Shown here: in pieces, positions 27,221 to 33,087 of the stretch
How the letters are laid out: each line of letters begins with the position of its first letter
How positions within the stretch are numbered: position 1 is the stretch's first letter
DNA from: Natronolimnobius sp. AArcel1
GTDB lineage: Archaea; Halobacteriota; Halobacteria; Halobacteriales; Natrialbaceae
NCBI RefSeq assembly: GCF_011043775.1
Contig: NZ_JAAKXY010000001.1
Location: 124,001-188,000, forward strand
Reading direction: 5' to 3'
Length of the DNA stretch: 64,000 nt
Notes under the pieces: model-generated
Seen by the model: the letters and a program-made list of their open reading frames with translations, nothing else
Told to the model about the DNA's origin: nothing
Database searches by the model: none
Program-made: the position numbers and the translations under genes

Positions 27221-28567
27221 ATGGCTGTCGACGAGCCCGTCACCGTTGGGGTACTAAGTTTACACACAAGCAAAGAGACCAAAGCAATACTCAACGCCGT
27301 CGAGGCATTGGGACACGACACCGCGTGGCTACGCGCGGAAAACACGTCGATCAGCATTGAGGACGGAAGCGTCGTCCTCGAGCCGACTGTCGACGTGATC
27401 GCGAACCGAATGCTGTTATCGAACACCGAGCAGCCAGCGGAGGAACTCGGCCTCGCAAATACGTTTGCCCAACTCGTCCCAATGCTCAACGAGCCGTCGT
27501 CGGTACTGACGGCAATGCACAAGCTCTCGACGGCGACGACACTTGCGGCCAACGATGTCATCGTTCCCGACGTCACCCTCGCGTTACATAGCGACACCCT
27601 CAATGCGGCTCGAGACCGCTACGGCGAGGAGGCGGTCTACAAGACTGCAATTGGGACACACGGCGGGGGGACATGGAAGGTCGGCCCCGAGGATCCGATC
27701 AACGCCAAGGTCGGCAACCGATATGCTTTCTTACAGGAACTCATCGACCGCGACGACGCGCGCCACCGAGATATTCGCATCTACGTCGTCGACGGCGAGG
27801 TTATCGGCGCGATGTATCGCTATGCACCTGACAACGATTGGCGCACGAACGTTGCACTGGGTGGCAGTGTCGAAAATGCGACTGACGACCTGCCCGACGA
27901 AGCCCGCGAGATGGCTCGCCGTGCGGCTGACTCCATTGGCCTCGACTACGCCGGCGTCGATCTCGTCGAGAGCGACGACGGCTGGTTCGTCCTCGAGGTA
28001 AACCCGACGGCTGGATTCAAAGGGCTGTATGAAGCGACTGGTATCAGCCCTGCACCGGCCATCGCGAAACTCGCAATCGAGCAGGCAGGCGGCACGGTTG
28101 ATACTGAGCGCGTGTCGGAGCTCTCGACCGTATTAGACGACTCACAGCCAACGGCGCGACCGCCTCAGTCGATTCAAGACGACAGCGAACGAAGCGTCAT
28201 TGGCTACACTGAAGAGGTGGTCCTGTCGGGAACAAGTGGCTCGAAATCGGTGCTCTCGAAGTCAGATACCGGCGCAACCCGGACGAGTATCGATACGGCA
28301 CTTGCGGCAGAGATCGGGGCCGGCCCAATCAAGTCGATCACACGTGTTCGCTCGGGCAGCAGCAAAACCGCAAAGAGCCGCCCAGTTGTCGATGTTGTCG
28401 TCGGCGTTGGTGGCAACCAACACACTGTAACCGCAAGCGTCGAAGACCGCAGCCATATGGACTACCCTGTCATCCTCGGACGTGACATTTTGGGCAACTA
28501 CCAGGTCGACGTGAGCCGACGCGCGGACGCCGATATGGAGGACATGCCCGAGGAAGAAGAGGAGTAA
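27221..28567 (+). CDS. RimK-like ATP-grasp ligase fused to a retropepsin-like protease domain
   Basis: A 448-residue two-domain protein. Residues ~1-290 form a RimK-type ATP-grasp amino acid ligase, with phosphate-loop-like AIGTHGGGTWKVGP, an IYVVDGEVIGAMYR strand and the metal-binding VLEVNPTAGFKGLYEATG. RimK relatives add glutamate to protein C-termini or build gamma-glutamyl peptides. Residues ~325-430 resemble the RimB/retropepsin-like family with active-site KSDTGATRTSI and VILGRDILGNY. An acidic tail ends the protein. Separate rimK and rimB-like genes often neighbour each other; here they are one chain. Substrate unknown. Confidence 0.87.
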   Translation: MAVDEPVTVGVLSLHTSKETKAILNAVEALGHDTAWLRAENTSISIEDGSVVLEPTVDVIANRMLLSNTEQPAEELGLANTFAQLVPMLNEPSSVLTAMHKLSTATTLAANDVIVPDVTLALHSDTLNAARDRYGEEAVYKTAIGTHGGGTWKVGPEDPINAKVGNRYAFLQELIDRDDARHRDIRIYVVDGEVIGAMYRYAPDNDWRTNVALGGSVENATDDLPDEAREMARRAADSIGLDYAGVDLVESDDGWFVLEVNPTAGFKGLYEATGISPAPAIAKLAIEQAGGTVDTERVSELSTVLDDSQPTARPPQSIQDDSERSVIGYTEEVVLSGTSGSKSVLSKSDTGATRTSIDTALAAEIGAGPIKSITRVRSGSSKTAKSRPVVDVVVGVGGNQHTVTASVEDRSHMDYPVILGRDILGNYQVDVSRRADADMEDMPEEEEE

Positions 28568-31383: not shown

Positions 31384-32739
31384 TCACTCGCTTCGAATGA
31401 TGATTTCGTCGTCCGTGATTTCTGCGATCTGTGCGGGTTCGACCGGATACTCGTCGCTTCCGTCACCACCCCATCCGAGTCGTGCTTTGAGCCGGTCGGC
31501 GAGGCCGGCCTCCGGGTCGACGTAGACTGTCTCATTCTCGACTTGGGAGGCGATTCCAACCTCCTGTCCGGAGGCGTCAACGACGACTTTTCCCTGATCG
31601 TCCGCCGAGGGCGTATGCATCACTGCCGGATCGACCGATGGCTGGCTGTCGCTGCTATTGGTATCGGGGTCCATCGCCGAGTCAACACCCTGTCCAGTCG
31701 CTGGCGGTGACGCTGTCTCATCGTCGTGGGCCGTCGCTTCACCGGCTTCGGCCGCCTCGTGTTCCCCAGCCAGAACCGTCTCGTACTCCTCGAGGGCGAT
31801 GAGTTCGCTCTCGAGGATGTCGCTGCCGATTACGTCGGTGTCGACGGTGTGAGTCTCCTCGAGGATGAACGTCATGTGCGTTTGCTCCGAGATTTTTTCG
31901 TCCCGCGTGCGGCGTTCGATGAGTTCGGTTCGGACGGTGTCGCCTTCGCCGCGCTTGCTCTCGATGACCTCTCGCTCGATGACCTCATCCGGCGCCACGT
32001 CGGCGGTGACGACATCGCTCTCTACAATCGAGCGCTGGACGGTCTCGAGTTCGACATCGGTCTCGAGGTCGTCGCGTTCAACATGCTCGTCTGACTGGAG
32101 GTCGACGTCGACGACGCGGCTCTCGATCGTGTAGCGTTCGATCTCCTCGATCGTCTCGAGTCGGGTTTCCTCCGTCGTCACGTCGATCGTGTCGGCGCTG
32201 ACGAACTCGGTATCGGTAATTTCGCGCTCGAGCAACTCTGAGTCAACAACGTGTCGGTCGGCGAGTTCGGTGTCGATGATCTCGCTTTCGATCGTATCTC
32301 GTTCGACGATTTCGCGTTCGATCACCTGCGTCTCGACGAGTTCGGTCGTGACCGTCTCACCCTGTCGGAGCCGATCCTCGAGTTCGGTCTGCCCGAGGTC
32401 TGCCCGTTCGAACGCCGCGTCGCGTTCGACGAGGTCGAAGGAACCGAGTCCCTCGCGTTCGCTTGCGCGATCATCTTCGTAGACGAAGACCAGTTCCTCC
32501 GTCGTAAACGTCTCCGAGAACTCCTCCCAGGTGTGTTCCTCGTGGTCTTGCTCGAGTTCGTTTCGACGAGCGAACGTGTGGCCATGGCCCTCACCACCAT
32601 GGGTTGAAACCGGGACAGCATCACGTTCTTCAGCCCACTCACGAATCTGATCTGGATCAGTTGTCATCCGTCGCGTCGACTGGGTGTCATCGACAGCGTG
32701 GTCTGCGTTGGAGTCGGGATCAGGTGTGTCGTCCGTCAT
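31384..32739 (-). CDS. Acidic ten-residue-repeat protein with PRC-barrel-like C-terminus
   Basis: A 451-residue protein of unknown function. Residues ~25-95 form a small domain (DPDQIREWAEERDAVPVSTH, then FTTEELVFVYED). Residues ~115-295 are built of imperfect repeats about ten residues long with alternating V/I/E/D/T, for example IEREIVERDT, IESEIIDTEL and LEREITDTEF, suggesting stacked beta strands. An acidic linker follows, then residues ~385-451 resemble a PRC-barrel (VVVDASGQEVGIASQVE and AQIAEITDDEIII). The ATG at 32739 is preferred to 32763. It converges on katG. Confidence 0.75.
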   Translation of the reverse strand: MTDDTPDPDSNADHAVDDTQSTRRMTTDPDQIREWAEERDAVPVSTHGGEGHGHTFARRNELEQDHEEHTWEEFSETFTTEELVFVYEDDRASEREGLGSFDLVERDAAFERADLGQTELEDRLRQGETVTTELVETQVIEREIVERDTIESEIIDTELADRHVVDSELLEREITDTEFVSADTIDVTTEETRLETIEEIERYTIESRVVDVDLQSDEHVERDDLETDVELETVQRSIVESDVVTADVAPDEVIEREVIESKRGEGDTVRTELIERRTRDEKISEQTHMTFILEETHTVDTDVIGSDILESELIALEEYETVLAGEHEAAEAGEATAHDDETASPPATGQGVDSAMDPDTNSSDSQPSVDPAVMHTPSADDQGKVVVDASGQEVGIASQVENETVYVDPEAGLADRLKARLGWGGDGSDEYPVEPAQIAEITDDEIIIRSE

Positions 32740-33087
32740 CGACCCCCACTGCAGGCGGCGCACACTTCAGTCGACAGGGCCGTCTCTGCAATTCAGCCTG
32801 GGATTTCCTACAATGTACGATCGACTCGAGCCGACGTCCGCTGTAATCGATGATTGAACTCACTAGCGGCGCTCTCGAGTAGTCATTCTACACGTATTCG
32901 AAGGTGCCTATGCAAGTGGCGCAAGCCCTTCTTTTGGTATTGTCATGTCTTCGGCTCCGAAAACAGTAGCCGCTAGCTGCCAGTGAGAGATTACTGTTGC
33001 CGGCTCTCATACTACTGGACACAAGTCAGTACAAATTTTCGACTCCCCGTTCGGTCGAAAATCTGCTACTCGTTTTGTCCGATGGTA
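32740..33087. other. Intergenic region with a terminator-like hairpin
   Basis: About 350 bases. I see no gene. The left end must hold the promoter of the repeat protein. The only clear structure is the hairpin at 33036-33061, listed separately. Confidence 0.5.
33036..33061 (-). terminator. Hairpin after the AlkA-like gene
   Basis: TTTTCGAC and GTCGAAAA form a perfect 8-base stem around a 10-base loop, ~27 bases past the stop of the minus-strand glycosylase gene. On that strand the stem ends in a T-run. It may act as terminator. Confidence 0.4.

Follow-up and report, generated by a model that had tools for sequence, protein, structure and literature searches.

A 451-aa protein is encoded on the minus strand of the window, the 64,000-nucleotide stretch of the Natronolimnobius sp. 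AArcel1 genome that was analysed. The open reading frame lies where the original prediction had placed it (Table 1). Comparison with three orthologues showed that third codon positions differ most and that coding selection is strongest in the repeat region. Against the orthologue L006, the substitution at codon positions 1, 2 and 3 was 0.166, 0.099 and 0.380 over the whole gene and 0.111, 0.058 and 0.327 over residues 97-322, the repeat region, which of all parts varies least at the first two codon positions. Because third positions vary most and the first and second positions of the repeat are the most conserved, the gene is real and under selection. The share of acidic residues is 29% in the protein as a whole and 31% in its repeat, as against 16-21% in six neighbouring proteins. 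No hydrophobic segment of membrane-helix strength was found in the 451 residues (maximum KD19 0.75).

Table 1. Features of the gene and its upstream region (positions are those of the window).
Feature	Residues	Position	Strand	Evidence
Conserved upstream element GACGGCCNYGYCGACTNAAGTR		32763..32784	minus	24-45 bases upstream of start codon; common to orthologues
Whole gene	451 aa + stop	31384..32739	minus	ATG ends at 32739; orthologue starts correspond in alignment
Small globular N-terminal domain	23-90	32470..32673	minus	AlphaFold pLDDT mostly 70-85
Helical connector, motif RADLGxxELEDxLRxGET	97-125	32365..32451	minus	alignment; helices in both models
Pentad block 1, first long strand	129-182	32194..32355	minus	periodicity; strand 148-181 in both models
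Predicted hairpin tip	181-184	32188..32199	minus	insertion hot spot directly after residue 183
Return strand	184-214	32098..32190	minus	both AlphaFold models
Variable spot and short helix	215-240	32020..32097	minus	deletions cluster at 222-228; helix 227-240 in model of 97-322
Pentad block 2	241-322	31774..32019	minus	phase periodicity; second predicted hairpin at RGEGD turn, strands 253-263 / 268-292
Acidic Ala/Ser/Thr-rich linker, predicted disordered	323-376	31612..31773	minus	pLDDT <50; length varies
PRC-barrel-like domain	377-450	31390..31611	minus	pLDDT up to 91; Foldseek RimM; annotated homologues

The gene lies between a convergent katG and a gene for an HhH-GPD DNA glycosylase in all 27 orthologous loci, and a RimK-type ATP-grasp gene is found beyond katG in 26 of the 27. 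No common neighbour was seen in more distant loci by a rough ORF comparison, itself disturbed by antisense frames. In the window, positions 27221-28567 encode a RimK-like ATP-grasp domain joined to one that is retropepsin-like, a putative zinc protease (PF08443 and PF05618). The upstream element is part of a wider, strongly conserved stretch (32750-32830, minus strand; GAGAAACGAGATACTGA ... GAGACGGCCNYGCCGACTCAAGTG) common to orthologues of many species. Within it lie a near-palindrome, GACGGC-NNN-GCCGAC, and the TATA-like sequence CTCAAGT, which would fit a leaderless transcript. The element has a single perfect match in the genome with no second good copy, and a regulon carrying it was sought there and not found; it is probably the gene's own promoter.

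Searches with the whole protein against Pfam, NCBIfam, PHROGs and PDB gave no match, and a PDB profile search gave only chance-level matches, all in the linker. There was no Rfam match and no phage match, and none of the libraries searched supplied a name for the middle part. A weak match of two members to NCBIfam Mfer763 (best E 0.006) was not accepted as homology. A first scan of genome contigs with the single protein as query also returned nothing. Searches of other halophile genomes, a check suggested at the outset, found the family across many haloarchaea. Long matches occur in at least 65 of the 125 genomes of its own family, Natrialbaceae, with about ten more divergent ones, and occurrence is patchy in three other families of the order Halobacteriales (17/170, 22/146 and 4/26 genomes). 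Where 393 genomes were drawn from the phylum, all those with a match belong to this order and none was seen outside it. Relatives include Natrinema, Natronorubrum, Natrialba, Natronococcus and Haloterrigena, and plasmid-borne ones occur in Halorussus and Haladaptatus. The order of parts is fixed, also in distant homologues: small N-terminal domain, pentad block, acidic linker, PRC-like domain. The annotated members found bear hypothetical names only, and the searches turned up nothing of known function that is similar to the middle, in agreement with the initial remark, which knew of no characterised protein with this form.

The repeat extends from about residue 129 to 322 rather than over the 115-295 given originally. 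Its phase shifts once by one residue, and a helical spot at about 215-240 is variable. By phase, the unit in residues 129-214 is [V/I/L/T]-[V/I]-[E/D]-[S/T/R]-[E/D], and the hydrophobic pair is displaced by one position in residues 237-322. BLOSUM autocorrelation gave z scores of 6.1, 4.7, 5.5 and 7.0 at lags 5, 10, 15 and 20 and peaks at further multiples of 5, with z at or below 1.5 at other lags up to 40. The Fourier power was 19.2 at a period of 5.0 and 0.17 at 10, and the peak was reached by none of 2000 shuffles (largest shuffle peak 10.7). Because the power sits at 5.0 with almost none at 10, the basic period is five residues and ten is a harmonic. Thus the original prediction stands in its repeat, in its alternating hydrophobic and acidic residues and in the peak expected at lag ten, but ten is not the fundamental period. 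The strongest single lag is 20 in the AArcel1 protein, but not in most distant homologues; in several of these it is 10, as would be expected if the chain is extended with its residues alternating between two faces. A BLAST match between the two pentad blocks was not accepted as proof of duplication, as composition may drive it.

The domains at the two ends were both anticipated. The small N-terminal domain is borne out by the model of the whole protein, and with the corresponding domain of the homologue L074 as tblastn query, matches were found in plasmid sequences of Sinorhizobium, Rhizobium, Rhodococcus and Xanthomonas, with E down to 1e-11. The C-terminal domain matches RimM (2f1l) by Foldseek with a probability of 0.98, but with E 0.19 and TMt 0.30, and some homologues are annotated as PRC-barrel. 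PF05239 matched 7 of 17 members below threshold (best E 0.012) and the AArcel1 protein not at all, the curated cut-off not being reached, and profile comparison with a neighbouring PRC protein gave 41% probability over 21 columns only. The assignment is formally below threshold and the domain is called "PRC-barrel-like" here; in that form the suggested PRC-barrel is upheld by the local model confidence, the RimM match and the annotated relatives. Elsewhere in the AArcel1 genome the domain stands by itself or is joined to different partners. In L002, a locus of the same genome (1498-2454; contig C6, near 197215), an extraordinarily acidic repeat (DDDDDLIGDDDDSGLMDDDDDDLIGD ...) comes after a PRC-barrel-like domain as another kind of repetitive partner.

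Two AlphaFold runs were made, one on the whole protein with an alignment of 28 sequences and one on residues 97-322, with pTM values of 0.29 and 0.42. In the first, local confidence was good in both terminal domains and in strands 150-181 and 184-209; residues 127-148 and 212-227 were poorly modelled in this monomer. The second gave strands 148-181, 184-211, 253-263 and 268-292. The very long antiparallel strands 148-181 and 184-211 agree across both runs (pLDDT about 83-89) at low overall confidence, and the runs are not independent evidence because they share the method and overlapping input. A separate line of evidence comes from insertions and deletions. Of the 119 homologues that aligned in a single piece, 51 have up to 146 extra residues directly after residue 183; elsewhere residues 115-320 are mostly near indel-free, the exception being a spot at 222-228 where deletions are common. 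A hairpin tip would be expected to show this pattern, and no sequence with an insertion at 183 was in the alignment given to AlphaFold. In the same indel map no such hot spot appears at the second predicted turn (264-267). Covariation in 108 sequences (Neff 60), too shallow to judge, gave no clear hairpin signal and no clear solenoid signal. Foldseek searches with the models gave no well-matching solved structure, and the matches to phage neck proteins and MHC, low-TM generic β matches, were given no interpretation. The tip inserts of L074 (610-2340) and other homologues are large and hydrophilic, with varied sequences that differ between genera; they may carry a function of their own. The β character proposed originally holds up, with long antiparallel strands predicted.

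The preferred reading, held at a little less than an even chance, is that this haloarchaeal protein is soluble, resides in the cytoplasm and serves as an adaptor or scaffold. The small N-terminal domain would be mounted on a stiff arm of long antiparallel β-strands built from acidic pentads, and a flexible acidic linker would bear the PRC-barrel-like domain at the opposite end. The arm would keep two putative binding modules at a distance from each other, and a third may be presented at its tip, the site of large inserts in many relatives. In an extended strand the five-residue spacing would give each face hydrophobic residues separated by acidic ones, an arrangement suited to a thin sheet that has to remain in solution at high salt. 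The period of five, the agreeing strands, the tip inserts, the selection on the repeat, the kept domain order and the absence of a strong membrane-helix segment count in favour of this reading; the low pTM values, the want of a good structure match, the unclear covariation, the turn at 264-267 and the neighbourhood not shared by distant loci count against it. The role is suggested by the anatomy and by other PRC-barrel proteins: CdpB1/2 are divisome organisers in Haloferax (PMC12186497), and CdvA, a filament-forming protein, has an N-terminal domain for which a PRC barrel was modelled (PMC3132758). It is possible, though doubtful, that the middle represents an undescribed β architecture, a free-standing, very long and highly acidic hairpin or a fibre of such hairpins, with a hydrophobic-pair pentad and serving as a rigid arm with an insert-accepting tip. 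Long two-stranded sheets with both faces exposed are, to our knowledge, rare among known structures. If such a sheet is kept under strong selection at molar salt, it would be a testable case of charge and a five-residue code stabilising an extended β structure, and the reading would give direction to a family found in many haloarchaeal genomes.

Alternatively, the middle domain might assemble only as an oligomer, such as an intermolecular β fibre or sheet, making the protein a structural polymer. The two badly modelled segments would fit this, as would hydrophobic residues lying on both strand faces and open hairpin edges; the very high acidic charge disfavours packing of many copies unless it is screened by salt, and the alternative is considered unlikely. 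An equally improbable alternative is that the middle forms a solenoid of the pentapeptide-repeat kind, close to the β-solenoid of the original prediction. The period is exactly five, it holds over at least eight contiguous units, the length expected of pentapeptide repeats, and the strongest lag in the AArcel1 protein is 20. Read as [S/T/R]-[D/E]-[V/I/L]-[V/I]-[E/D], the unit loosely resembles the pentapeptide-repeat pattern, whose consensus is [STAV][DN][LF][STR]x (PMC8145042). However, none of 45 pentads fits the strict consensus and no PF00805 match was found (E 10), which rules out membership by consensus, while the same genome has genuine PF00805 proteins. The residue after the central position is hydrophobic, unlike in the published consensus, and the prominence of lag 20 is lost in most distant homologues. 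In place of a right-handed quadrilateral β-helix, AlphaFold shows uninterrupted long antiparallel strands, at low overall confidence. Structure prediction gave the β strands that had been expected but not the solenoid, against which the mismatched consensus and the hot spot at the predicted tip also speak. At the limited model confidence a homo-oligomeric solenoid or fibre, though unlikely, is conceivable.

More doubtful still is a role in stress survival as the haloarchaeal counterpart of bacterial YsnF-type proteins. YsnF proteins combine a PRC barrel with DUF2382, a repetitive charged domain, and the AArcel1 protein likewise joins a PRC-barrel-like domain to a charged repetitive one. A search of 195 genomes of the order found no DUF2382, and the gene adjoins katG and a DNA-repair glycosylase in every orthologous locus. 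On the other side, these neighbours are not kept in distant loci by the rough comparison, the domain order is reversed, and no member scanned matched DUF2382, so that membership by profile is ruled out. A search of plasmids for DUF2382 also found none; it used an approximate consensus query and carries little weight. A plain coiled coil, named at the outset as the outcome that would overturn the prediction, is not borne out, since the Fourier power lies at 5.0 with only about 0.1 at 3.4-3.6 and at the heptad period of 7.0, and strands are predicted.

The AArcel1 protein can be set beside four known groups. The pentapeptide-repeat proteins (PF00805) share the five-residue period; the AArcel1 protein differs from them in its consensus, its hydrophobic pair, its acidic spacing and its predicted long antiparallel strands. 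The YsnF/DUF2382 proteins (PF09557) resemble it in joining a PRC barrel to a charged repetitive domain, but there is no sequence match and the order of domains is opposite. The N-terminal domain, by way of that of L074, resembles stand-alone hypothetical bacterial proteins of about 90 aa for which neither Pfam nor NCBIfam has a name; the annotated example, a 90-aa protein from Xanthomonas, consists of the domain alone, unlike the haloarchaeal fusion. The PRC-barrel proteins (PF05239; RimM, CdvA, CdpB1/CdpB2) share a compact predicted β domain with the C-terminus, and we know of no characterised member that carries a pentad arm or such an N-terminal domain.
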